Below are positions 44,831-61,659 of a stretch of DNA of 64,000 bases, in pieces (within the stretch, counting starts at the first letter, position 1; the number at the start of each line of letters is the position of its first letter). Origin of the DNA: Methanosalsum zhilinae DSM 4017 (lineage in GTDB: Archaea > Halobacteriota > Methanosarcinia > Methanosarcinales > Methanosarcinaceae); contig NC_015676.1 of the NCBI RefSeq assembly GCF_000217995.1, forward strand, positions 970,103 through 1,034,102, in the 5' to 3' direction. The notes beneath the pieces are model-generated. The model searched no databases and was not told where the DNA came from. It saw only the letters and a program-made list of their open reading frames with translations. Both the position numbers and the translations under genes were made by a program.

Positions 44831-46870
44831 TCACATAAAGAACAAAGATTTCTGAGCAGCATCAATCGGATCATCATAAAAAGATAATTGGAATTTACTC
44901 AATACTTCAGGCGGCACACTTCCCAGCCTTGCAGTTGAAGCAGACGGAATCAATACTTTCTTTGCTCCGGCATCAAGACATACCTGTAGTAGATCTGCCA
45001 AATTGTCCACTGCATTAATGGAGCCACCAATTGTCATATCTCCAATAATAGCGGTTTGTTCATGCAGTGGCTTATCAAGCGCTCCGGAACAGAGGCTGAT
45101 GAAAGTTGACAGTGCCAGACCATTTGCCAGTCCGATTCCATACATATCCTGGAAGTTGAGGAAATAATCGCTTTCTTTTGTGGATATAGATTGGCTTATA
45201 GATTTGGCATTGGCCTTGAAATAATTAATAGCAGTTTTGACAGATTCCTTAGCTGATGAATTGCTGCTAAGCCCCGTAGCTTCATATTTTCCATTGCCGG
45301 TGGCAATTTGAAGTTCTATTTTATAAACCCCGATTTTTCCGTTCTCATTTGGTGCAACAGCAAAAGCCTCTCCGGGTTTTCCAAGTCCTGGGGGAATTAT
45401 TTTGTTACCACCACTTTCTGGAACGTTGACAAACTTTTCTTCCATTGTTTCATTATCCAGGTAAGAGAAATTCACATCGAAAAATTCCATACCACCAATC
45501 TTTTTGAGTTGTTCCTTTACACGCCTTCTGCCTTCCAGAGAGTATTTGAGTACTTCTTCAGCTTCTTCTTGGGTAATTTTTCCATTGGGATATATCAGTT
45601 TGACAAGGCCAGAATAGGTTTTTTTAACAGCAATCACGTCTCTCTGGTTCAGGTTGGATCCCATCTTGAAATATTTAAAAAGGCTGTCTGCGTAGGAATA
45701 TTTACGCATTTCACGGAAGAATTCGGCAATATAGTCGACAATAAAACCATGTTTGTCGGTGAAGTGTTCTGGCCGGAATTTTGGGACTTCCCAGCCTGGA
45801 AGATAGTAATGTATCCTGTCGAAAAAAGCGCTGTCATTATTCATGGCTTCGGGAAAAGGAGCAAACAGATGGTGAGTCTTTAGAAGGGAGGAGACGCTTT
45901 GGTTGATATTTCCTACAAAGGCAATAGAGGCATTGGCATTGATCTGCTCTTTACCTCTAGCAAAAGATCCTGAAGCCATGTAGTCTTTTAGAATCTGGAT
46001 TCCATCCTTATCTTTGAAATTGATACCTGCAACTTCATCAAAGGCCACTACATCCCACATACCTACCAGTCCTACCTGACGTGTGGACATATTGTAAAAC
46101 AGATTTGCTACAGTAGTTTGTCCCCCAGAAATAAGGACTGTGTTTGGTGAGATTTCTTTATATACATGGGACTTGCCTGTGCTTCTGGGGCCAAGCTCAC
46201 ACATATTATAGTTGTTTTCAACAAGAGGTACAAGCCTTTCAATAAGATGCCATTTTGTCCTTTCTTCTAGATTGGAAGGTTCCATCCCTACGGAGCGCAG
46301 CAAGATGTCCATCCATTCCTCTTTTGTGAAAAAGTTTCTGTTCTCAAGGATTTCATTTATATTGATGTTAGGCAGTTGAATTGGCTTTAGATCAGAAATT
46401 ATGAAAGGTGACCCCATCTGTTCTGGTTCGTATTCCATTTTAACGATGCACCATATCCCGCCTCCAAGCAGTTTATCATAGCGCATTACATAATCGGATT
46501 CAACTTCCACTTTTGCAATACCCAGATTGGAAAACACGGCTTCATAGACATCACGTCTTTCATTCAGTTTTACAGTAATCTTATCAATTATTGTATAATA
46601 GCCACTTTCTCTGATGCGGGATTTAATCTTTTCAGCCTCATCAGGCCTGACATAATTCCTAGATAGGATGTTTTTGACTTTCTCCACACCAGCTTCTATA
46701 AGGTCTTCATCTTCCGTGGCACAGTTTGAACCTAGCAAATATTCCAGGACGTAAACCGGGACATTGTAGCCTACTTTCATCATTTTAGTGAGGTCTTTGC
46801 GTACTACACGTCCTGCGAAGTATTGTTGTAATTTTTCATCAATTGATACATCAATTTCTGTCCCGTTCAT
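44831..46870 (-). CDS. brxL: BREX protein BrxL (Lon-like AAA+ protein)
   Basis: 679 residues: N-terminal domain, AAA+ ATPase with Walker A GPRSTGKSHV (about 226-235) and FDEVAGI Walker B, and a C-terminal Lon-like domain (about 520-679: AIIGDMTIGGSIN, DAGAKKVLIP). The motif at the usual catalytic Ser (GPSAG) reads GLANG, so proteolysis may be lost. In BREX, BrxL is needed for phage exclusion and forms DNA-encircling rings. Last gene of the minus-strand unit. Confidence 0.9.
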   Translation of the reverse strand: MNGTEIDVSIDEKLQQYFAGRVVRKDLTKMMKVGYNVPVYVLEYLLGSNCATEDEDLIEAGVEKVKNILSRNYVRPDEAEKIKSRIRESGYYTIIDKITVKLNERRDVYEAVFSNLGIAKVEVESDYVMRYDKLLGGGIWCIVKMEYEPEQMGSPFIISDLKPIQLPNININEILENRNFFTKEEWMDILLRSVGMEPSNLEERTKWHLIERLVPLVENNYNMCELGPRSTGKSHVYKEISPNTVLISGGQTTVANLFYNMSTRQVGLVGMWDVVAFDEVAGINFKDKDGIQILKDYMASGSFARGKEQINANASIAFVGNINQSVSSLLKTHHLFAPFPEAMNNDSAFFDRIHYYLPGWEVPKFRPEHFTDKHGFIVDYIAEFFREMRKYSYADSLFKYFKMGSNLNQRDVIAVKKTYSGLVKLIYPNGKITQEEAEEVLKYSLEGRRRVKEQLKKIGGMEFFDVNFSYLDNETMEEKFVNVPESGGNKIIPPGLGKPGEAFAVAPNENGKIGVYKIELQIATGNGKYEATGLSSNSSAKESVKTAINYFKANAKSISQSISTKESDYFLNFQDMYGIGLANGLALSTFISLCSGALDKPLHEQTAIIGDMTIGGSINAVDNLADLLQVCLDAGAKKVLIPSASTARLGSVPPEVLSKFQLSFYDDPIDAAQKSLFFM

Positions 46871-46879
46871 TTTTCTGCC

Positions 46880-49489
46880 TCAAAAATCAAAATCATCAGT
46901 CATAAGCAAGTCTACTTCAAAGGGTATGGGATCTATTATAGTTCTCGCAGTGGAGTCCTCATCTATTAACTTGAGATAATATGTTTTATTTTCTACATTC
47001 TTGCCAAGAGTTAATATGACCTTCTGCTGGCGCTCTTTAGGTTCTCCTGAGGAACTTTCCATAATCACAGTTTTTTCATCACTTACCTTCTCACCATCGA
47101 ATTCACTGTCCCAGAGTGCTATACGCAATTTTAAAGGTCTAAGCTTATCACTTACCTTTTCAGTCTGCAGCAGATTTACAGAGAATGAATTGCTTGTGAT
47201 CCTTCTGCTCGGATTGGTAACAGCTACTCCAACCTTGCCTTTTTTGATTCCTTTACGGTCCAGTTGTGAACTCTTTTTGTAGCTATACTTGAGGACTGGT
47301 ATAATTATCTCCTGGGGAGCCAGGCCACCATGGACAAACTTGTTTCCGCCTCCCTGCATCCTGAATCTCAGATCAGCTACCGGAACATAGGCATAAAGAT
47401 CGTCTTCCGTTTCAATAAGATTGTTGATTTTGAATTTGTGAGTGTTCATCACATCGATATCTTCTGTAGTGAGGATGAAGCGTTTTTTAGAATCGATTAT
47501 CCTGTCTTCATTAAATGTTGCTTTATCGAGTTTGTAGACGCTTTCCAGGTCATCCCGTCTGTAGATGAAGCCGTGATCAGATGTTACAATTACATTATTT
47601 AGAAGTTGGGAATTGGTTAGTTTTCCAATTATTTTTTGGATTTCTTGGATGCAAGTTTCCGTCTCATCGAATACTTTGTCTTCTGAATGTTCGCCAGTAG
47701 AATCTATAACATCGTGATATATATAGAAAAGCCGCTTTCCTTTGTACTTTTCACGTAATTCTTCTCTTGATAAATCAATTATTTCCTTATATGTCAAAGT
47801 AACACTGTCAGGAGTTGCCTTGTCCACTATTTTTGCCCGGTTGGGAGTGCCTTCAGTGCTAATACCATCGGCCAGATAATGTTTATTCTTAAGTTGCAAT
47901 GAATCATGAGGTAGCAGTGATGCCATTCCCAATCTGGTATAAGATGGAAGAGAACCCACCATGTTATTAAGTTCCATTGTACCAAGTCTGTCCTTATTGA
48001 GTCTTTCCTGAAGTTCTACAGCGATCTCATAGCGCATTGCATCGGAAATTATGACTGCAATTTTGTCCCTGTCATTCTTTTGCATGATTTTTTGCACATA
48101 TAATTTGTAGAATTCATCCTGCCTGTCTGCAAGTTCTACTTTCCAGTAATCACCAACATCTGTATTGATCAGTTCACTCCAGTGGCCGAGCATTTTGTCC
48201 AGTAGGTTATTGTTGTACAGGTTTTCCACACGTTCCCTGATCTTAGAAAGAACGTCCGTCTTGTTGTCGAGGTCATAATTGAAGTAAAATTTACGGTAGT
48301 AATAATCCATCTGGTAGAGGTTTTTCTCATACCGGGCTATGAATCCACGTACATCTTTACAGGAAGCAAGCGTTTTTTCAAACCCTTTGGCAAACCTATG
48401 GAGTTTGATTGCGTATTCCAAAGCACTGTAGATGTGCTGGAATTGTGGATACCAATGCTTGGATTTTCTCTGGAAAATCCAGTCCAGATATTTTTCATAT
48501 TCTTCCAGGTCGTTACATAAACTGTCCACAATCTGTCTTATGATTGCTCGATCGAATACGTCAAAGGCTTCGGCCTCTATGTATTTGGAAGGATCGGAGT
48601 CTTTGATCTCCTGCTTGAGATATTTTTCGAGTTTCAACTGGCTATCTTCAAAGGTTTCCCTGCTGTATTGATCAAAGTAAATCCCGTCTTTGGAGTGATC
48701 CATCCATGTACGGATAAAGATCTCACATTCATTACTCATGGAGTTGATGTAGTTCTTATATTTCTTCAGGGGAAGAGCTGTGTTTCGTTTTATGTGTGTT
48801 ATAAGGATGCTCAAAAATAATTTATATAGTGTAGGATCTGGCTGTACAAACCCGAAGTATTTACCTGCAAGTTCCCAGAAATCATCTTCAAGATTGAGCC
48901 TCTGAATCTCAGCCCAGGAGGGGTTTTCAGTTTCATACAGGGATTTAAGGAACAATTTGCGAACTATGTCCTTAAAATCAATAGTATCTGACCCTGTGAG
49001 CACTGCCAGAAAGCCCAACACCATTTCGTCCCGGCGCCAATTTGGGTCATAGAATTTCCGGAATGGCTCTACACGTGCTTTACTTTCAAAGAACCTGTAA
49101 TGTTCTTCCAGGAAATTATCCAGATCATAGCCTTCGATTCCGAATTCACTCTTTATATCAGATATCCGGCTGTTTTCAAACCTTTCAGAATACATTTGTA
49201 TATCCAGCAACCAGTTCTTCTCAGGCTGTGGCTCTGCCCGGGATGAATATATCAGAAAATGAGTATCAGGTTTATCCTCTTCAATGAGTTTCTTGGTCTC
49301 AAAGAAATTCTGCTCAAGCCTGTGGACCTGAATACCGTTCTCCTCAAGAATTGGTTCAATCTCCTCAAGCCCACCATCAGCTGCAGTCTCATCCTTATCA
49401 TACCAGAAAACTATCCTCCGGTCACTGTATCCTTTTGTATCATTGAATTTTTTAAGTATGGCCTGTGCGGTCTTTTCGGCGTTGAGCAT
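46880..49489 (-). CDS. pglZ: BREX protein PglZ (alkaline-phosphatase superfamily)
   Basis: 869 residues. The PglZ core has AVIISDAMRYEIA (about 474-486, metal-binding Asp), NNVIVTSDHGFIYRRD and VHGGLAPQEIIIPV, all alkaline-phosphatase-fold metal motifs. The N-terminal part has the RIVFWYDKDE start common to PglZ. It is an invariant BREX component and the source of the name of the module. Stop 9 bp before brxL. Confidence 0.93.
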   Translation of the reverse strand: MLNAEKTAQAILKKFNDTKGYSDRRIVFWYDKDETAADGGLEEIEPILEENGIQVHRLEQNFFETKKLIEEDKPDTHFLIYSSRAEPQPEKNWLLDIQMYSERFENSRISDIKSEFGIEGYDLDNFLEEHYRFFESKARVEPFRKFYDPNWRRDEMVLGFLAVLTGSDTIDFKDIVRKLFLKSLYETENPSWAEIQRLNLEDDFWELAGKYFGFVQPDPTLYKLFLSILITHIKRNTALPLKKYKNYINSMSNECEIFIRTWMDHSKDGIYFDQYSRETFEDSQLKLEKYLKQEIKDSDPSKYIEAEAFDVFDRAIIRQIVDSLCNDLEEYEKYLDWIFQRKSKHWYPQFQHIYSALEYAIKLHRFAKGFEKTLASCKDVRGFIARYEKNLYQMDYYYRKFYFNYDLDNKTDVLSKIRERVENLYNNNLLDKMLGHWSELINTDVGDYWKVELADRQDEFYKLYVQKIMQKNDRDKIAVIISDAMRYEIAVELQERLNKDRLGTMELNNMVGSLPSYTRLGMASLLPHDSLQLKNKHYLADGISTEGTPNRAKIVDKATPDSVTLTYKEIIDLSREELREKYKGKRLFYIYHDVIDSTGEHSEDKVFDETETCIQEIQKIIGKLTNSQLLNNVIVTSDHGFIYRRDDLESVYKLDKATFNEDRIIDSKKRFILTTEDIDVMNTHKFKINNLIETEDDLYAYVPVADLRFRMQGGGNKFVHGGLAPQEIIIPVLKYSYKKSSQLDRKGIKKGKVGVAVTNPSRRITSNSFSVNLLQTEKVSDKLRPLKLRIALWDSEFDGEKVSDEKTVIMESSSGEPKERQQKVILTLGKNVENKTYYLKLIDEDSTARTIIDPIPFEVDLLMTDDFDF

Positions 49490-49546
49490 GGTTTTATTTC
49501 CTGATCATTTAGTAGCCACTTTTTTTAACCCTTCATTGGTTAACTT

Positions 49547-51157
49547 TCAATCTATTAAATATAATTTCTTATATTCTTCATTTGCATAATTATCTGACAT
49601 TCCTGCGATATAGTCACAAATAGTAGAAAGATAAACATAATGGTTTTCCGCAAGACATTTTAGGAACTTATCTGTTTTACCAGTTAAATTATATGATTCA
49701 GTTGAATTGATTGATTTTAGTTTTTCGTAAAACTCTTCATTCTTTTCAATATCCTCAAATTCCAATCGAATCATATTCTTCAATTTAGATGGGATTTCTA
49801 ATCTCATCAAATCTTCTAATTTTAAAGAATTATTTAATGTATTTACTTCAGAACGACTCAGCCTATTGTAATCTACATCATTTAACTTTACAATTCCATT
49901 TTCACCTTCAAAGCTTATTACGTATATATCTGAATTTTTAATCAGTCCCTCTGTGAGTCTTGATAATACGTATGAAGGCATTTGGAGTGGGTTTGTGTAA
50001 AATGCTTTGAATAATTGCCTTATTACGAACCGAGATTTCCCATCGAATTTGTTCACCTGGTATGAGTTCAAAATTCTATATTTTACTAGTTTTTCGATTT
50101 CTATGTTAAGCTCTCTACCCAAAGGAGAAAATGAAATAACTTGATTTTGGAGTATATTCCTTTTCATATCCTGACTTAGTTTAGGATTTTCTTTTAATAT
50201 ATTCCGATGGGAATTAGCAAAAACGTCAAGAATAAAATATTCAATCATATTTCTTACTAGATTATCAGTTTTAAAAAGTCTAGATTTTGATTTTCTGTTT
50301 TCAATAATATTATCTCGAACTTGAGTTAATAGTTCAATTAAATTTTGTAAATGCTCTTTATCGTTTTCTTCATATTGAGATTCTTTTAAAATAATTTTAT
50401 CAATGATTTCTATTATTTCTCCATATAATTTATCTAATTCAAATCCCAACTCTTTATTTCTAAGTCCATCATCAATATCATGTTGCCTTTGGGCAATTTC
50501 GTCTGCTATAGATACTATTTGACCTTCCAGTGTAACTGAATATTTTTTGTCAAGATATAAGCTTTCTATCAAAGAGTCATCACTTAAAAATCTCCTGATA
50601 TCCCATCGTTTCTCATCTATTTTAGTGTGTTTTAGGATTCCTTCCAAAACTTGCCAGGAAAGATTTAGTCCTTCATGATCTTCAAACTTCAATTGAACTA
50701 CATCTAATACACGCAAACAATTATAATTATGTTTGAAGCCTCCAAAATTTAAAGGATATCTGATTAGACCGAGTTTATCTGTTCCACTCATGACTTCATC
50801 TAAAACTCGTTCTCCCTGATGACCAAATGGTGCATGTCCAATGTCATGTCCTAAAGCTATAGCTTCAACCAAATCTTCATTTGCATCTAAATATCTTGCT
50901 AAACTTCTTGATATTTGGGTAACTTCTAGAGTATGTGTTAGTCTTGTTCTATAATGGTCTCCCATTTCATTAGAGAATACCTGTGCTTTATGCTGCAATC
51001 GTCTAAATGGTCGTGAAAATAGAATTCTATCTCTGTCTTTTGTAAACTCACTTCTATTGATTTCTTCTAATATCTGACATGAGATGGGTAACTTTTCCTC
51101 TATTTTTTGATTTAACCGATCCGTTGCTTGAAATTTTTGGCTTAATTTACGTTTCAT
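49547..51157 (-). CDS. dGTPase-like HD-domain dNTP triphosphohydrolase inside the BREX operon
   Basis: 536 residues. N-terminal [15 protein letters not shown], then HD-domain residues His75, His104-Asp105, His108 and His113 ([21 protein letters not shown]) as in Dgt/SAMHD1-type enzymes, which cut dGTP or other dNTPs to nucleoside and triphosphate. Its ATG overlaps the pglX stop (ATGA) and has AAGGAG within pglX; a 57-bp gap precedes pglZ. It is clearly more A+T-rich than the BREX genes, which suggests later insertion. dGTPases are known stand-alone anti-phage proteins that deplete nucleotides. Confidence 0.88.
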
Positions 51158-54100
51158 ATCTCCTTCACCAACCCATCAAACAACTTGTAATTCTCCTTGA
51201 CCCCGTCATCCAGATCGATCTCAATATATGCATCCGCCTTGTTCTTGAGCACCTCATCATAAGCCATGATCTCCTCGATATACCCAGCCAGTTTCGCCTT
51301 CTCCTTTGCACTCTGGGCATCTTCACTTGAAAGCATCTCCCTGTGAGCATCCATTTTCCCTTCCAGCTCCAGTAGATACTCAGTCCGCATCCTGGCAAGC
51401 GTGGTCCTGTCATAGCGATGTATGTAGACCAGTGCATTGAAAGCCCGCTTTTTCCCTGAGGTGAACAGCCAGTAAATAGGCCGCTTCTTGTACATTTTCA
51501 CATGGTCTTTGTAGAAATCCTTGAGGAAATAATCCCGGATGACCTGCTCGGAAGACTTCGTTTTCTTCTTACCTCCGACGTAGAGCGCCTGTGCAATGAA
51601 ATCCATATTCTCCGAGAGCTTCTCCGGCCCGAATGTCACCTTTAAAAACTCCTTGAACCTGCCTACGATGTCATCTGTGAAATACTCCTCATCCAGTATA
51701 GGAATGATGGCATCCTCATCCGGCAAAAACTCTGCATCAGGAACTTTCTCCAGAAACTCCTGCATCCCTTCTCCCTGATTGGCAAGGATCAGCCCTTCCT
51801 TATGCCGAGAATATCTCCCGAACATGCAGCCCACGGCGTAGGAGATGAACTCTTTAATGGTATCAGTAAGCAGCAAGGTTTCCAGTTCTTCCTCGGATTT
51901 GTTGTTTCCATAACGGTAATAGGGATTGCAGGTAAGCGTAATCTCCGAAAGCGGCACATCTGGGGTCAGTTCATCCTGCAAACCGTAGGCTTCAATGAAA
52001 ATACGGTTATTATCCTCTTCCATTTGTTGCATTTGCAGTGTCATTTCCTTCCAGTGAGCGCGGAGGTTGGAATAGGTTTTTTCGAAGGTTGGACAGTGGA
52101 ATTCGGGTTTGAGGAATGGTGAGGTGGTGAAGTCCCAAGAAGTTTCGTAGGAGTCCCAGTCGGATTTTGAGACATTAATACATTCAATTGATTTGTCTCT
52201 GGTTTTTTTACTAATTGTTTCTACTACAAGTGGTATTTGAATTATGTCTCCTACTTTAAAATCCATTGTAGGGGATAATACTTTCAAATACTCATTCGCT
52301 AAAATACTGTTTAACAATCCAAGGATTTCAAAAGGATTATTTGTAAAACCTTTAGCTCCCTTAGAATCAAATAAGAAACCTTTTTGGCAGTATCTTACAG
52401 ATAGATTCCCTGAACTTAAAGAAGACCAAGTAAGTCCCTCCTTGAATCCGTATTCTCCATTATAATTGTGAGATCTGATACGTCCATTATGAGGGTCAGT
52501 ATTATTTTTGATATTGTATCCATTATTTTCATATTCTACAATAAAATAATTATTTCCATACCATTTTCTGAATGCTCCACCTTTGTTGTAAGGAAACCAT
52601 TTTCCTTTTGAAATAATTGATTCTGCTTCTGATTCACAACCATATGTTATTTTTTCATAAGATACTTCATTCCAATATCTAAGAAAACGATCATTATCAG
52701 CAGTTGCCATCCCTTCTCTAGTAGTCAAATATTTCCCGAGATTAGGTAAATTAAAGGTTTGCAAATAAATTTCACTTACCCAATAAGCAATCGGGCTCCC
52801 TGGAATCTTCTTAAAATCGGCGGCGGAGGCAGTATAAAACCAACCACAATCTGGATTTTTTATAGCTTCTAGAGCTTTTGGAGCCTGATTTATTGCTCCT
52901 CGAAAATCAGATAGCCTTACATAGCCACCTTTATAATTAGGAAGATGGGCATTTTTAGCTGTGAATGTACAAATTGGTACTGTTGCACCGTCAAAACCCG
53001 AATATTCAAGTTGAATCAATGAAGTGATAGTTTTCTGCTCTATCAAATAATTTCTTAGTTTTTCATATGAAGAAATAAACATCCATACATACGGTGTCAT
53101 AAATCCTAGTTGGCCCGCAGGTTTTGTAAAATCGAAATTACTTACAATAAACATAGCAAATAAATCTGACTTGCTATTTGGATAGTTGTCTTTAGCGTAC
53201 TTCTTTAGGATGGGATTCATTCCCTTATTGCCCATATAAGGCGGATTCGTTACCACGCAATCATATTGGTTGCTCATCAGCTTGGCCTGTTTGATGATGG
53301 CATCCGGGCTGTTTGGCACGTCTCCAAAAGTATCTATGGCAGGATTCTTGCTGAACTGGGCGTATTCGGAATCGATCTTGTCGAAGTCGAATTTGGGTAG
53401 TTTGAGGATGGAACCGTATTCCTTTGCGTCCTTAAAGAATTCGATGAGACGGTGCAGTTCTGGATACTTATTTTCAGGGATGTAATCGATATTATTGGTC
53501 TCCTGGATGGAGCAGATATTGAGCTGGATATCTTTTTCGAATAATTTACGGTCGTATTTGCGGGCCTGCATCATCAGGGCAAATCCTGCTAGCTGGGTGG
53601 CTCGGTCATCGATTTCCAGACCGTAGAGGTTCTTATTAAGGATCAGGGGTGCGATCTCATTGTCCAGATAGCCCATGGAGCGATAGATATCGTAAAACAC
53701 TTCAAAGGCATAGACCAGAATATGGCCTGATCCCATTGCCGGGTCAAGCAGGGTGATTTCTTCAGGACTGTAGACTTTTTCTTCCGGATCAGGAGTCTCC
53801 TGGTCGATAAAATACTCAAACTTGTCCTGCAGATTGGGATTCGGATTGGATTCCAGCCATAATCTGCCTAGGGAATTCTCCACCATGTATTTGACAATCC
53901 ACTTCGGAGTGAACAACTGGGTTGCTGCAGGAATATTCTCCTTATTGATCTTCATATTCTTCTTCAGGTTGGCAAACACCTTTTTCTTACGGGGTGCTAC
54001 GTAATCCTGATAGATCCAGCCGATGATCTCGACTTCCTTCCAGTCCTCTTCAGGAATAATATCATTTAATTCCACAAGGACAGAATCCGTATGGAGCAGG

Positions 54101-54639
54101 TATTCCGGGATGAGTAATTCGGTGTAATCCTCAATTTGCTCGAACAGAAACGGCATGATCTCATGCAGGTAATTGCAGAGTCTCAGGATCAGGTAGTGAT
54201 AGAGTTCTTCGTCCATACCCTCTGCTTTGAGGTCCAGTACATGATCCAGATCCAGCTGCAAAAAATCCAGGTCTGATGCTTTTGTGAGGATATCAGGTTC
54301 CTTCCTGCCTGCATCAGATGAGGAAAATATGTTTACAGGCAGATAATCGTTAACCTCCATGAACTTCAGGGCTACGAACCTGTTAAACCAGGTATAGGTT
54401 ACCTCGTCCATCACCTGCTCATAACCCTTCTCGGCTACTTCCTTCACAAGTCGCTCTCGCTGGTGTTTGATCTTTTTATTGTAAACTTTCCCTCCAATAA
54501 CAATGGAATCCGCGTGCTCTGAATCTACAGGTAACACTTTATCCGGCAGGATACCGTAAAAGGCAGCCCTATGTTTTACTTCCTGTTCCAGTTTATCCCG
54601 TAATGAATTGGAAAATGTAATGATACTGTTCTTGTCCAC
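51154..54639 (-). CDS. pglX: BREX adenine-specific DNA methyltransferase PglX
   Basis: 1161 residues. AdoMet-binding motif I is [15 protein letters not shown] (about 300) and the catalytic motif NPPY is at 465-468. Residues from about 470 to 826 probably hold target recognition; this stretch (about 52160-53235) is much more A+T-rich than the flanks. The C-terminal part (about 830-1161) is a helical extension. It marks host DNA by N6-adenine methylation in BREX systems. Frame intact, so methylation is predicted active. Confidence 0.92.
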
Positions 54640-54663: not shown

Positions 54664-56142
54664 TCATCCTCTGTTTTCTTGCAGATACTTTCGCCCCTTC
54701 GCAGTCAGGCGGTATTTTTGAGTCGGGCTTTTTGGTGAATCCGGTTGTGTCATTTCAACAAGGCCGGCTTGAATGGCGGGCTTCAGGTAATCATAAACAA
54801 ATGTCGGACGACTACTTATACCGACACGTTGCATTACTTCCCTTCTTCCTAATGACTTATCTTCAAGGCAGATAACCAAAGATCTGACTTGTTCGGTTAC
54901 TTGTTCGGTTACTTGTTCGGTTACTTGTTCGCCTGGCCAGGAAGAAGTTTCTTTACCAGCATGGGTTTCTGTAGATACCGCAATAGAATCTGCCAGGTAA
55001 ACAATGAACCTCACCCTCATACCTATCTCAATAATCTCCGGCTGGGGAAGCCCAAGTTCCTCAGCATCCTTCAGGATACGGCGAAAACCACTGCCCCACT
55101 GTTCGATCAAGTCAAGTTCCCTGAAGACTCTGGCAATAACACGATTCCTGATCCTTGATACGCCCTGCTTGACATCCTCGATAGTCATGCCCGGCAGAAG
55201 TATGCCTGGATTCTCTATCTCTATTCTGTCATCAAAGAAAGACACTCTGATAGGTGCTCCCTTCTGGGAATAATCCGCATGCACGATGGCATTGACAAGA
55301 GCCTCACGCAGGATAGTAAGAGGAATGCTCCATACATCCTTGCGTCGGATATCTGAGAAGTCTGCACTTCTGAAAGCATGTTTCTTCAAAAAGAACATTA
55401 CGGACTCAACAGAGCCTGGAAGATCTTCATGGATCTCAGTATGGTCGAAAATGTATGCTTTATCCATTCCCTTGAAGCGCCCACACTGTATCCATGCATC
55501 GGGGAAATGGAAATCTCTCTGTTTTCCAAAGAGAAGCATTGCACCAGTGCTTGGAACCAGTCTCCCTTGCTCCCGAATTAGGATCTTGAGCGTTATCAAC
55601 TCCTCTTCGCTTAGCTCCCGTACTCCCTTAAAACGCTTTTTAGCAACATCGAGATCAAGCTCTTCCAAAGATAGATCAGGCATCGGCATCTCATCAAAAG
55701 AGATACCTGAAGCACTTCTCTGAAGTTCGGCTATAAGCTCCCTGTCAGCTTTTCTGTTAGTAGAACCAAGTCTTACATAAACGCCATCTATATGACCTTC
55801 TTTCCTGACCCAGTGAGGACGTGAACCACTAAGATATACCTCAATAGCCAGTACAGTCTTACCCTCTACTGTCATTAACTCGACATTTGGAACAAGCCGG
55901 GGGGAAATACTGTCAGCAATAAGACTGCAAAGCCGCTCTTCCTCATCAAGCGGATTTGAAACTCCTATGATTTCCTTTGTCCCATCCTCAACACCAATAA
56001 ACAGAACTCCTCCGGCAGTATTGGCAAATGCTACGAGCGACTTCAGTATATTTTTTGGAGAAGACACATCACGCTTAAATTCCAGTGTCTTGCCCTCAGG
56101 CAGTCTAACCAGCTCAGATATCGGCAGCCGCATAATTTTCAT
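54664..56142 (-). CDS. AlbA_2/Schlafen-like ATP-binding protein with HTH, BREX-associated
   Basis: 492 residues. The N-terminal AlbA_2 domain (EGKTLEFKRDVSSPKNILKSLVAFANTAGG, in pieces; GVEDG) is followed by an HATPase-like RNA-helicase-type central region (REALVNAIVHADYS, GSGFRRI) and a C-terminal winged helix (about 425-490). A (EQVT)4 run near 410-425 comes from a 12-bp DNA repeat. Such proteins are recurrent accessories of BREX and other defence loci and are proposed regulators. 24 bp upstream of pglX. Confidence 0.85.
   Translation of the reverse strand: MKIMRLPISELVRLPEGKTLEFKRDVSSPKNILKSLVAFANTAGGVLFIGVEDGTKEIIGVSNPLDEEERLCSLIADSISPRLVPNVELMTVEGKTVLAIEVYLSGSRPHWVRKEGHIDGVYVRLGSTNRKADRELIAELQRSASGISFDEMPMPDLSLEELDLDVAKKRFKGVRELSEEELITLKILIREQGRLVPSTGAMLLFGKQRDFHFPDAWIQCGRFKGMDKAYIFDHTEIHEDLPGSVESVMFFLKKHAFRSADFSDIRRKDVWSIPLTILREALVNAIVHADYSQKGAPIRVSFFDDRIEIENPGILLPGMTIEDVKQGVSRIRNRVIARVFRELDLIEQWGSGFRRILKDAEELGLPQPEIIEIGMRVRFIVYLADSIAVSTETHAGKETSSWPGEQVTEQVTEQVTEQVRSLVICLEDKSLGRREVMQRVGISSRPTFVYDYLKPAIQAGLVEMTQPDSPKSPTQKYRLTAKGRKYLQENRG
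54890..54941 (-). repeat. 12-bp tandem repeat, about four copies
   Basis: The unit TTGTTCGGTTAC (plus-strand reading) is reiterated, encoding Glu-Gln-Val-Thr on the minus strand. Because 12 bp is a multiple of three, copy-number change keeps the frame. Confidence 0.9.
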
Positions 56143-56175: not shown

Positions 56176-59100
56176 TCAAATCACTTCGATTTTATTTTCT
56201 TCGAGCAATTTCTTCATTTTCTGACGGATATTGTCCAGATATTCTTCCAGATCTTCTTCAGTCTCAATTTTCTTTTGGCTCGTAAATTCAGATGCCTTAA
56301 CAACCTTTGTAGGCTTTACACGAACCGGCTCTTCTCCATCTTCATCATCCTTTGTTTCCCTGATAAACTGTACTTTTTTGGAAATCTCGCCACTAACATC
56401 CTCGTACAAATCATCAATAGAATCATTCAGTGTCTTTGCATAGACACATTCTTCACATGCTGCAATTTTACCCTTACGATTGTCAAAGCGCTGCAAGATG
56501 TGGTTTTTGAAATTCTCCTCTAAAATTCTATAAGAATCGATATCCTTGGCAACTTCATTCTTGCGTTTGTCCAGTTTCTCATAACTTTCTTCCTTTAGAT
56601 TAGAAAGGCTCTGTTGCAGACCTTTATCTATTTTCCCACCTAACTGCGGTAGTTCTTTTATACGGGAGTATGGTTTATCCATCTCCAGAATTTCCTGTAC
56701 AGTCTGAACATTTCTCTGTATATCTGCATCGAGAAACTGCAGATTGCGCTCATAAATATCTGCCTTCCTGTGCATATTTCTGAAGATATCAACCATTTGA
56801 CTTTCAAAAAAACTTATTGCAGGTTTTGCTTCTTCGTAAAGCTCTATTAACTCATCTTTCTTATCCGCAACCGCCTGCAAAAAATCAGAGGGATCATTTA
56901 TTTTATTTATTTCTTTCAGGAACTCACTATAAGCCTTAATTTCTTCCCTGCCCGGATAAGCTTCAACTTCTTGATAACGCCCTGCAAATTTCTCTGCATC
57001 ATCTCTCTTCTCACTGAAAACCTGTTTTGTATATTCAAAAAGATCATTTTCTTTTTCAGGAATTGCTGTCTTATCAAATACATCATTCAAGACATCCTTG
57101 ACAGCTTTTATAGTCTCCTTATTGGACTTTTCTCGAATCTTTACAACAATCCTATCAGCATCTTCCTTTTTAGTAAGATAACGGGCAATTTCATCGGCAT
57201 TCTCGGATTTGAGGATCAAAGGCGTTTTTTGATAGCTGAGCTTGATCTCCTCATTGGCAAAAAGAGTGGCTACAAGTCCTGAAATAGTCATATCCTTCCA
57301 CCCATAGGGCTTGCTCGAAAACCTCTCCTTAATATCCTTCAAAACAAGCACATCATTTTTTTGTTGCCGAATTTTGATATAATCGCGCAATTCTGCAAGC
57401 GCATTCTTATTGGTGTCAGACATTCCTACACCAAACCTTTCCAGATCATCAGCCCTTAATACCCTCAAGACATCTTTATCTGAATCATAGTTATAAGTCA
57501 CATAAGAAGCCTTGCTGTAAACATTGCGGGATAGCTCATCAAGCCCGTCTTTAATTCTCTCCTTTGGGTTTTTCTTTTCAATACTGTTTACTTCTTTTCC
57601 ATCAACGAAAACCCGGGAATTCTTTGCACTTTCAAGTACTGCTCTTTTAGCCTCATCAATCAGCTTTTCCTTTTCCACTTCCTTGGAACGCAATATTTCA
57701 TTAATTTCTGCTATGTTGGAATTTGAACTATTTTGACGCAGATATTTCTCTATTTTTAGATGGCTGCGAACCAGATCAACTACTTTACTATCCTGCGGGA
57801 AAGCAAACAATAAAGTATCCTTTGAATCCACATTGCTCAACATATCTCCGGAAAGGGACTGTTGATCGCTTTTATGGTATAATTCATCTGAGAGAGGGGT
57901 CAGGAACTTGACAGTTAAATCGGCATTGCCGGCTGATTTGTACTTTTCATCAACTGCTCTGTTAAACTTATACTCCTTATATCTGGCAGGGCAAACTTCA
58001 CTGGAATCACCGAAAATATATGTATAAATTGTATCCAGAACACGATAATTCTCAACCTCAGTATTCTTAATTTCCTTGTTGATCTCCTGCTCTTCATTGG
58101 TCAGGAAATGATAACTATTTCCAGACTTACTGATAAGGGTCTGTTTTTCTAATCTTTTAAGTGACTCGTCCACTTTTCTCTTCAATTCCAACTTATCCTC
58201 ATTAACAGAACTAACTGAAAGCACAACCAGATTATCAAGGTTTGGAACTACTTCTTTAACATTTCTTATCAGAAACAGTAATTTAAGAATCTGGTTGTCA
58301 AATTCCTCAAGCTCTGCATTGTCTTGAGCCTGAGTGATTGTTGATTTGATAATGGGGTCAAGGAAACTCTCAACAGTATCATAAAACGAATAAAATGGAA
58401 TAAGGGTACCCATATTTTCTTCAGCATATTTTTCAGTAGCTTCTTTGAAAGCATTAAGCATCGAACGTTCACCTTTAGCAAGGTGCTTTCCTGTAAACCC
58501 ACTGTTTCTGATTCTCTCAAACACTTTCTGCAAAACGAAAAACTGATAGGGCACATAAGGATAAACATTAATGAAATCCTCTTCACCCTTGTACAATTTC
58601 ATCTCTGCACAGTCTTTGGAAAAAGACATGAGATTCTTAAGTTCATATCTCTTCTCAGCATAAAAAGCTGCAAGGGTTTCATTATATTCCTGCTTTTTGG
58701 CAAGTATTCTCTTTTTGATAACTTCATCCACATTGGCACTGGAAAGACTCAATCTGGTATCAAATCGTCCCTGGATTTTTGAGAAATCATAACCTTTGAC
58801 ACGGTCTTCTGTAATAGTATCAATATCAGCCTGAGCAGTCACTACCAGCCACGCCTTTCCTGCCAATTTTGTACCCAATTCCTCTACAATGGTCTGCAAG
58901 TTAAGCATCATCTTGCTATTTTCACCAATATATTGTCCAATCTCATCAATCAGAAAAATAACCTGATGATCATCGCCTTGAGATTCACAGTATTTTTCAA
59001 CCTTTTTGGCAAACTTCTCTACATCCAGATGATAGGTTTCCCCATCATTTTTAAAGAGGGTGTTCAATGATTCTCTGCTTTGATAATCGCAGGCCACCAG

Positions 59101-59742
59101 AGCATCAATTATAGCATCCTGTTCAAAAGCATATGAATCACGTCTCTCCTCCCAGGAATCCCCTGCGATCTTCTGGAATTCAAGTTTGAATTGCTCATAC
59201 AATCCTTTTTCAGTCAGATCCTCTTCAAGATCTGCGATCCAGAACACGTCTCCATAGAAACCTCGCTTTTCATTAAAAGCTCGCATCAAAATATTAACAA
59301 TCGGTTCTGGATCTGCATGAATGGTATTGGCCTTTGAATCAATATTGAAAAGTATTACATCCTTGGTACCAAAATTAACGGAATTTTCAATATTACTGTA
59401 GATTGAAGGATCCTCAACTTTCTCCTGGAAAAAATCAAGAGCATTTTTACCCTTAACATTACGGTTTTCAAGAAGGTAGGATAACATTTTGATAAAATGC
59501 GATTTACCGGATCCAAAGAAACCGGAAACCCATACACCTATTTTATCTGTGGGAGTAAGCATTGCGTCATAATAGCGCTGGAAAAAGATATCCAGGTGCT
59601 TTGATGTCTCCCTAGTGATTACATATTCATCAAGTTCAGTATAAACAACATCTTCATCATACTGATCGACCTTGATAACTCCTTTAATGTCCCTTTTTAT
59701 GTCCTTTTCAAAAAGATCTTTTATCATAATATCGTTAATCAT
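56176..59742 (-). CDS. brxC: BREX ATPase BrxC (PglY-like)
   Basis: 1188 residues. N-terminal KDLFEKDIKRDIKGVIKVDQ matches the BrxC family start, with Walker A GFFGSGKSHFIK near residue 72 and IFLIDEIGQYIG as Walker B. The rest is long helical/coiled-coil domains. GTGGG lies just before ATG 59742; MIKDLF five codons later is an alternative. Large ATPase of the BREX complex. Confidence 0.92.
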   Translation of the reverse strand: MINDIMIKDLFEKDIKRDIKGVIKVDQYDEDVVYTELDEYVITRETSKHLDIFFQRYYDAMLTPTDKIGVWVSGFFGSGKSHFIKMLSYLLENRNVKGKNALDFFQEKVEDPSIYSNIENSVNFGTKDVILFNIDSKANTIHADPEPIVNILMRAFNEKRGFYGDVFWIADLEEDLTEKGLYEQFKLEFQKIAGDSWEERRDSYAFEQDAIIDALVACDYQSRESLNTLFKNDGETYHLDVEKFAKKVEKYCESQGDDHQVIFLIDEIGQYIGENSKMMLNLQTIVEELGTKLAGKAWLVVTAQADIDTITEDRVKGYDFSKIQGRFDTRLSLSSANVDEVIKKRILAKKQEYNETLAAFYAEKRYELKNLMSFSKDCAEMKLYKGEEDFINVYPYVPYQFFVLQKVFERIRNSGFTGKHLAKGERSMLNAFKEATEKYAEENMGTLIPFYSFYDTVESFLDPIIKSTITQAQDNAELEEFDNQILKLLFLIRNVKEVVPNLDNLVVLSVSSVNEDKLELKRKVDESLKRLEKQTLISKSGNSYHFLTNEEQEINKEIKNTEVENYRVLDTIYTYIFGDSSEVCPARYKEYKFNRAVDEKYKSAGNADLTVKFLTPLSDELYHKSDQQSLSGDMLSNVDSKDTLLFAFPQDSKVVDLVRSHLKIEKYLRQNSSNSNIAEINEILRSKEVEKEKLIDEAKRAVLESAKNSRVFVDGKEVNSIEKKNPKERIKDGLDELSRNVYSKASYVTYNYDSDKDVLRVLRADDLERFGVGMSDTNKNALAELRDYIKIRQQKNDVLVLKDIKERFSSKPYGWKDMTISGLVATLFANEEIKLSYQKTPLILKSENADEIARYLTKKEDADRIVVKIREKSNKETIKAVKDVLNDVFDKTAIPEKENDLFEYTKQVFSEKRDDAEKFAGRYQEVEAYPGREEIKAYSEFLKEINKINDPSDFLQAVADKKDELIELYEEAKPAISFFESQMVDIFRNMHRKADIYERNLQFLDADIQRNVQTVQEILEMDKPYSRIKELPQLGGKIDKGLQQSLSNLKEESYEKLDKRKNEVAKDIDSYRILEENFKNHILQRFDNRKGKIAACEECVYAKTLNDSIDDLYEDVSGEISKKVQFIRETKDDEDGEEPVRVKPTKVVKASEFTSQKKIETEEDLEEYLDNIRQKMKKLLEENKIEVI

Positions 59743-59752
59743 ATTCCCACTC

Positions 59753-60336
59753 TCAGTTGTCTATTGCACTGTCATCCACAAGCCTGAAAGCCCTGTAGTA
59801 ATTTCCGTCCTTGAACTTACCAAATAAACTTAAATCAAGCCCGCTATACTTTCCAGGATAAAACAATATCAACGGCATATCATCTACAACAGGCTGTAAA
59901 TTATTTAGAATTGAGTGCGATCTAACAAGAGGCCAAGCTTTTCCTACACCAGTGATGAAAATAATACCCACATCACCAAAATCATCGATTTTTTCTTGAT
60001 GGCTCTCTGGATGTTTGCAGGTTTAAGCATGAGTCTTAATTTTTCAAGCAATTTGTCAGAGCCTTTGTTTGATTCAAATTGAATTATTCTTTCTATAGGA
60101 ATTTTTACTGTGACAATCTCCAAACACAGTTCATATAAATCAATCTCCAGGATATTTATTGATTTCATTTTCAAATTCTCTTTTAATTTTGGAATCCTGG
60201 AACGCATAAGCAATTCCTTTTCTGGTGGATAATCAAATATCCAAAAAGGGACTTCATTCCCCAATCCTTTACCTTGTAGAAACTCTTCACTCCGGATAGT
60301 TTCCTCAAGTAAATCTAGGCGTTGTTCTATTGTCAT
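59753..60336 (-). pseudogene. brxB: brxB (DUF1788), frameshifted in an A6 tract
   Basis: Residues 1-122 (TIEQRLDLLEETIRSEEFL ... NIQRAIKKK) read in one frame from 60336. At the tract 59989-59994 (six A on the coding strand) the BrxB reading moves to the -1 frame (KIDDFGDVGIIFITGVGKAWPLVRSH ... YYRAF, in pieces) to 59753. Joined, the two parts give a full-length BrxB of about 195 residues. The first frame otherwise ends at a TAG at 59944. Either a mutation, a sequencing error or programmed -1 slippage. brxC follows after 10 bp. Confidence 0.85.
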
Positions 60337-60936: not shown

Positions 60937-61659
60937 TTAAAGGGGTAAATCTAATTTGTTTTTATATTTTTTATAACAAGTATAACAAATTGGTTTAATT
61001 TTACTAGATTTGGTATCACGCCCACATGTGTGACAAAATTTTTCTTGATAATCGTCCTTTCCAAATTTACTCCACTTTGTGTAGCAATTTTTACAATATG
61101 GATGTAAAGGATCTAATTTTATTTTCTTCTCACACCTAATACAAAAACCAGTATCAATGAGCTCTTTGGAATTACTTTTTTTATTATTTTCTTTTTTGTC
61201 TTCTTTATGAGATACCTTCTCAACGGTTACTTTTACTTCTTCACTAACTCTAAACAAACGTTTAGCTTCTTCGTTTATATCGTCATATAATTGAGGGTCT
61301 GTATCTCTAGAAACATATATTCCCATTTCATTGTTGTTTTGTTGAGAAAATTCATAAAGGTTCATGGAAGTTATCAAAGCTTCTTTTTCATTTAAGTAAC
61401 ACTTAGCATGTAAATTTTTACAAAAACCTGTTCTAACATAATCTAAATTTCTCAACCAATTGTTTTCATCTGGCTGGAGTTCATTTTTTCCGTAGATGAC
61501 TTCGGTATTAATTTTAATTCTATTTTTATCCTCAATTAGTTCCCGAATTCGTTCATTAATCCGTAAAAATGGACTAATCAAAATTAATTTTTCATCTGCA
61601 TTTTTTATAATTTCTTCTAACTTAAAAGAAACTCCTGTTGTGGTCAAAAATTTAGGCAT
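60937..61659 (-). CDS. PLD-family protein with two zinc ribbons
   Basis: 240 residues. The PLD-like domain (1-130) has the single HxK motif HAKCYLNE followed by ITSMN and FSQQNNNEMG; the motif's Asp is Glu here. A Lys-rich linker leads to two zinc-ribbon-like sets, CIRCEKK...CKNC and CHTCGRD...CYTC (about 170-232). Single-motif PLD proteins dimerise to form the active site and occur as nucleases in defence loci. It ends 18 bp before the McrC remnant. Confidence 0.75.
   Translation of the reverse strand: MPKFLTTTGVSFKLEEIIKNADEKLILISPFLRINERIRELIEDKNRIKINTEVIYGKNELQPDENNWLRNLDYVRTGFCKNLHAKCYLNEKEALITSMNLYEFSQQNNNEMGIYVSRDTDPQLYDDINEEAKRLFRVSEEVKVTVEKVSHKEDKKENNKKSNSKELIDTGFCIRCEKKIKLDPLHPYCKNCYTKWSKFGKDDYQEKFCHTCGRDTKSSKIKPICYTCYKKYKNKLDLPL

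Follow-up and report, generated by a model that had tools for sequence, protein, structure and literature searches.

Is a dGTPase gene that lies inside an archaeal BREX operon a component of BREX, or does it occupy a place there that other genes can take as well? The question is raised by a locus of Methanosalsum zhilinae DSM 4017 (GCF_000217995.1, NC_015676.1), which was analysed within a window of 64,000 nt (positions 970,103-1,034,102 of the forward strand); coordinates without a locus label refer to this window. The genes of the operon, all on the minus strand, follow one another in the order brxB (frameshifted), brxC, a Schlafen/AlbA_2 gene, pglX, the dGTPase gene, pglZ and brxL. BREX-1 PglX, PglZ type A, BrxC and BrxL are thus encoded in a single operon, each scoring far above its model cut-off. 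The features referred to below are:

44831-46870, minus strand: brxL, 679 aa (BrxL model)
46880-49489, minus strand: pglZ type A, 869 aa (PglZ type A model)
49490-51153, minus strand: cargo slot between pglX and pglZ, where the two nearest BREX operons have unrelated genes instead
49547-51157, minus strand: predicted dGTPase-family HD dNTP triphosphohydrolase, 536 aa, ATG start
51154-51303, minus strand: conserved 3' tail of pglX, which supplies the start of the cargo with its GGTGA and its ATGA overlap
51154-54639, minus strand: pglX, BREX-1 adenine methyltransferase, 1161 aa (BREX-1 PglX model)
54664-56142, minus strand: Schlafen/AlbA_2, minimal histidine-kinase and wHTH gene, a second accessory gene between brxC and pglX
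56176-59742, minus strand: brxC, 1188 aa (BrxC model)
59752-60336, minus strand: brxB, frameshifted; the frame stops after 130 aa and the rest is readable in another frame

The dGTPase gene is present in one copy in the genome (one contig, 2.14 Mb) and is separated from pglZ by 57 nt. A sequence-only reading had placed it between pglX and pglZ of a BREX operon, had described an ATGA overlap with the pglX stop and had noted a base composition richer in A+T than that of its neighbours. Coordinates and family models confirm the placement, and the two other observations hold as well: the dGTPase ATG lies at 51157 and the pglX stop at 51156-51154, and the GC content of the gene is 29.9% (GC3 20.9%), compared with 37-46% (GC3 36-47%) for brxC, the AlbA gene, pglX, pglZ and brxL. 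As for the ribosome site, a GGAG inside pglX ends just 2 nt ahead of the dGTPase ATG, and a GGTGA 7 nt ahead of it is better placed. Upstream of brxB, the window also encodes a PLD-domain protein with a zinc-ribbon-like tail and weak similarity to DrmC (60937-61659, minus strand).

The protein itself matches the general dGTPase model TIGR01353 dGTP_triPase with 230 bits, above the cut-off of 152, and the PADLOC dGTPase model with E=5e-77; with the anti-phage dGTPase model NF041026 it scores 173 bits, below the cut-off of 400. The predicted metal ligands H75, H104, D105 and D219 and the predicted catalytic pair H113/E116 are invariant in a nine-member alignment (A1), and both A1 and the alignment to 2DQB contain the HD metal ligands and the catalytic H/E pair that characterize TIGR01353. 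The spacing from the HD motif to the H/E pair, 9 and 12 residues, equals that from H117/D118 to H126/E129 of CloA, where H126/E129 are the catalytic-pair positions in CloA and in the Shewanella anti-phage dGTPase (PMC12265719). When the clade profile was compared with the PDB, the T. thermophilus dNTPase 2DQB was the best match (9e-61), followed by the S. putrefaciens anti-phage dGTPase 9P8W (8e-35). In an AlphaFold2 model (mean pLDDT 76), 2DQB is likewise the best fold match, with a TM score of 0.83 by target length. Judged by these features, the window protein is an intact dGTPase-family enzyme, and its predicted substrate is dGTP or several dNTPs.

The closest BREX operons, L180 (genome G111) and L181 (G105), encode PglZ proteins 88-90% and BrxL proteins 96% identical to those of the window. 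In place of the dGTPase they carry unrelated genes, which encode either a 341-aa protein or an SMC-like protein of 800 aa. Both loci follow the window at approximately 87-90% DNA similarity up to the pglX stop, and the similarity returns only close to the pglZ ATG, 12 nt ahead of it in L180 and 4 nt ahead in L181. The slot contents have been exchanged, and the boundaries of the exchange are the 3' end of pglX and the start of pglZ. The Schlafen/AlbA_2 gene is also missing from L181. On the PglZ tree, the loci with a dGTPase are maximally scattered (five changes for five rows), and six of the seven slot dGTPases fall into one clade. This distribution indicates that the dGTPase entered the slot several times; it is not a fixed part of BREX, since the closest BREX operons hold unrelated genes there.

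Throughout the order Methanosarcinales, of which 186 genomes were surveyed, this gap is the expandable one. Between pglX and pglZ, 24 of 25 loci carry cargo, the gap there being at least 500 nt long (median 3.1 kb); a gap of this length was seen in none of 33 pglZ-brxL, none of 12 brxB-brxC and 4 of 21 brxC-pglX intervals. Four loci from other families of the phylum have a small gap there (about 40-275 nt); among bacterial plasmid BREX loci, it is empty in Mesobacillus, Vibrio and Acinetobacter and holds one PDDEXK gene in Methylomonas. Slot occupants that can be assigned to a family are mostly defence genes: GmrSD, Gabija-like GajA with UvrD, a PDC-S06/PrrC-like ATPase, AbiL-like AAA with RloB, CAP12-type TIR, a DUF1016/YhcG nuclease and AIPR. 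Defence-type cargo lies at the pglX-pglZ position, as Salmonella PARIS does, and is replaceable between close relatives.

Further cargos were seen in the slot. A 341-aa protein (L180:14096-15121), a 335-aa protein (L178:468-1475) and a 741-aa protein (L171:7133-9358, with a relative at L175:4864-7089) have no Pfam or PADLOC match and are candidate unknown defence genes. A two-gene cargo, which encodes a protein of approximately 120 aa and a cysteine-rich protein of 157 aa, recurs in L164 (2930-3778), L168, L169, L173, L176 and L177; in L164, L168, L176 and L177 it is preceded by a remnant of the pglX tail.

Relatives of the dGTPase return to the same place. Among the 186 genomes, full-length relatives with about 50-69% identity are encoded in six: (i) in G118, G119 and G090 the gene lies between pglX and pglZ; (ii) in G023 it follows pglX, and the contig stops before pglZ; (iii) in G058 it is preceded by a fusion remnant of BrxB and PglX (106 aa) and retains the ATGA; (iv) in G155, the sole clade member outside BREX, it lies approximately 40 kb from a BREX locus. 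Six of the seven clade members of the order are therefore located behind pglX or a pglX remnant, a proportion whose probability by chance we estimate to be negligible if a BREX locus makes up some 1% of a genome. At L035 (8990-10959), BREX is reduced to a BrxB-PglX fusion remnant and the neighbouring dGTPase is still intact. In G308, which belongs to another family of the same phylum, the space between PglX and a PglZ that is closest to type B, yet under the cut-off of that model, holds a dGTPase of a different clade along with an SMC-like gene; this arrangement points to a second, independent recruitment into the pglX-pglZ gap.

The dGTPase of the outgroup G498 has no BREX alongside, and the other two genomes of the genus Methanosalsum lack both the dGTPase and the BREX genes and provide no comparison. 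A search of genome contigs with the single dGTPase protein returned no relative, and a search with the dGTPase alignment returned at least 80 loci, seemingly ordinary bacterial dGTPases with at most 38% identity among the matches listed; among these listed loci, no BREX genes were detectable nearby with the window proteins. Two plasmid dGTPases that were examined (Klebsiella, E. coli) both lie outside BREX, and viral contigs yielded distant dGTPase matches only. Bacterial BREX-dGTPase pairs may nevertheless exist, as bacterial BREX loci are barely sampled for dGTPase.

Could the gene be a passenger, a metabolic enzyme for dNTP pool balancing or repair that landed in a recombination-prone gap? 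Genes of the dGTPase family are common and many lie outside defence loci, and the A+T-richness of the insertion would fit such an origin. The company that it keeps in the slot speaks for defence, however, as do the repeated re-entry of this clade and the arrival of a second dGTPase lineage in the same gap in G308, and the remaining dGTPases of the order have no BREX gene in the flanking stretches examined. We consider a passenger role unlikely.

The start overlap, too, turns out to be a property of the place. In eight loci with at least six unrelated cargo families, the cargo starts at an ATGA made with the pglX stop: the dGTPase (twice), GajA, the PDC-S06/PrrC-like ATPase, a 741-aa protein (twice), a 341-aa and a 282-aa protein. 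Since unrelated cargos share the overlap, it belongs to the slot, and its reading as a mark of a coupling specific to the dGTPase was rejected for the same reason. This bears on the possibility that BREX, on recognising foreign DNA, activates the dGTPase as one of its functional subunits or as an obligate effector. The overlap with pglX and the tie of the clade to BREX would be expected of a subunit, but the overlap is generic, the closest operons do without the enzyme and it is missing from about 34 of the 40 PglZ-A loci of the order, so that we hold a subunit to be quite unlikely.

Several proposals of the sequence-only reading can now be weighed. Recurrence of a dGTPase at the pglX-pglZ junction, which it had proposed as a test, is borne out by the same clade in BREX loci of five further genomes and by the gap of G308. 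The A+T-richness, the DNA breakpoints and the scatter on the PglZ tree support its suggestion that the gene was inserted late, when the operon already worked. The idea that the gene is built into BREX stands as far as position and recurrence are concerned and fails as regards a fixed part, the dGTPase being one of many swappable cargos in a hypervariable slot. In the same way, the ATGA overlap is real, and as a sign of a partnership specific to the dGTPase it has to be given up.

How cargo may enter the slot is suggested by remnants of the pglX tail. A profile built from the final 150 nt of pglX detected such remnants, 40-150 nt long, within the order Methanosarcinales in the slot ahead of displaced cargo, namely in G023, L164, L168, L176, L177, L173, L182 and L035. 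They read ...DLDDGVVVNYAKFEGLVEKI up to the stop, and in G023, which has several, one ends in the ATGA of the dGTPase (E=7e-6). The reversed profile gave zero remnants, and a further 2.08 Mb yielded at E<0.01 solely true pglX tails and second copies of the same places. We infer that homologous recombination carries cargo along with part of pglX and that older cargo is thereby shifted downstream. A built-in docking site could then exist in the 3' end of pglX, with the dGTPase as one cassette circulating among the sockets of methanogens, a proposal on which our judgement is evenly balanced. The conserved last 50-150 nt of pglX would serve as one recombination arm and the start of pglZ as the other, and the same tail would provide a ready-made start region and ATGA start codon for incoming defence genes. 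A new gene would plug in behind pglX, and the older cargo would be displaced downstream with its pglX-tail remnant.

The state of the BREX system itself has to be considered as well. The open reading frame of brxB (59944-60336) covers just the first 130 aa, and an A-run contains one A fewer than in L180 and L181, loci of 87-90% similarity; either a sequencing error or a genuine mutation could account for the frameshift. In Salmonella, brxB is required for BREX (PMC11341690). PF08849 (BrxA) was not found in the genome of the strain, where a divergent BrxA is possible, and among the 186 genomes it occurs in 2, compared with 39 that have PglZ type A above cut-off; the archaeal BREX-1 loci of the order seem to be without a recognisable BrxA. 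With its brxB frameshifted and no BrxA detected, this strain may have an impaired BREX. PglX also occurs as two genes, which correspond approximately to residues 1-590 and 601-1161 of the window PglX and often have the Schlafen/AlbA_2 gene between them, in L031, L032, L033, L034, L163, L165, L166, L167, L171, L172, L175, L208, L209, L210 and L211, which recalls type I R-M systems, where M and S are separate subunits.

Taken together, the dGTPase is probably an accessory defence effector, which an archaeal BREX-1 operon carries as interchangeable cargo between pglX and pglZ. It could act in the following manner: translated together with PglX, the enzyme would stay quiet in healthy cells; upon infection it would hydrolyse dGTP or several dNTPs, thereby starving viral DNA synthesis, and serve as a backup when BREX fails or is inhibited. 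Phages are restricted by dGTPases with the same fold, which deplete dGTP and in some cases detect infection via dNTP levels (PMC12265719); the window enzyme would probably sense infection itself in this way, like known dNTPases, and not as a BREX subunit. A two-layer defence by nucleotide depletion, as put forward earlier, is plausible on these grounds. In a narrower form of this explanation, with overlapping confidence, the dGTPase is a stand-alone defence that shares the operon with no interplay with BREX. Known anti-phage dGTPases, such as that of S. putrefaciens, act alone (PMC12265719), and BrxU is independent of BREX on pEFER (PMC8565348). If BREX brought no benefit, it would be surprising to see the clade confined to BREX slots over long times, although recombination from slot to slot accounts for it equally well; we regard the narrower form as possible but doubtful.

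The preferred reading, an interchangeable accessory effector, can be set against systems described before. Clover (CloA/CloB) has a dGTPase effector of the same superfamily as the window protein (PMC12265719); it was rejected as an assignment, as no CloB nucleotidyltransferase was identified among the neighbouring BREX-operon genes. With the stand-alone dGTPase of S. putrefaciens (9P8W), the window protein has in common the HD fold, the metal and catalytic residues and the single-gene format (PMC12265719), whereas sequence similarity is low (E=8e-35, best stretch residues 32-179), its C-terminal part is longer, it lies inside BREX and its activity is a predicted one. BrxU (GmrSD) of the pEFER BREX island is likewise an extra in-operon defence gene that adds a complementary layer, but it is a type IV nuclease located between brxC and pglX (PMC8565348). 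Auxiliary or backup effectors inside BREX loci have been catalogued by Rakesh and Krishnan (PMC12839542), and the Schlafen-HK-wHTH gene of the window is of a kind included there; the catalogue covers nucleases, its main text does not contain 'dNTPase', 'triphosphohydrolase' or 'HD domain', and it did not come up among papers that mention BREX together with dGTPase. Predicted nucleotide depletion would thus be added to in-operon BREX backup effectors that this source, as far as it is available, has catalogued as nucleases.

The closest precedent for the position is Salmonella PARIS (ariA/ariB), accessory defence genes that also lie between pglX and pglZ of BREX-1 and that are dispensable for BREX methylation, according to the available portions of PMC9009780 and PMC11341690. 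There, PARIS consists of an OLD-type ATPase and a tRNA nuclease, in contrast to the dNTPase-family cargo of the window, and pglX-tail remnants are not reported in those portions. Comparisons of close relatives and the remnants show one fixed BREX gap gaining, swapping and stacking defence genes. The slot is a concrete place to seek new defence genes, for example the 341-, 335- and 741-aa cargos, and it offers a hypothesis of defence-island assembly that can be tested, in which displaced cargo with its pglX-tail remnant can be likened to the orphan modules of Rhs/CDI loci.
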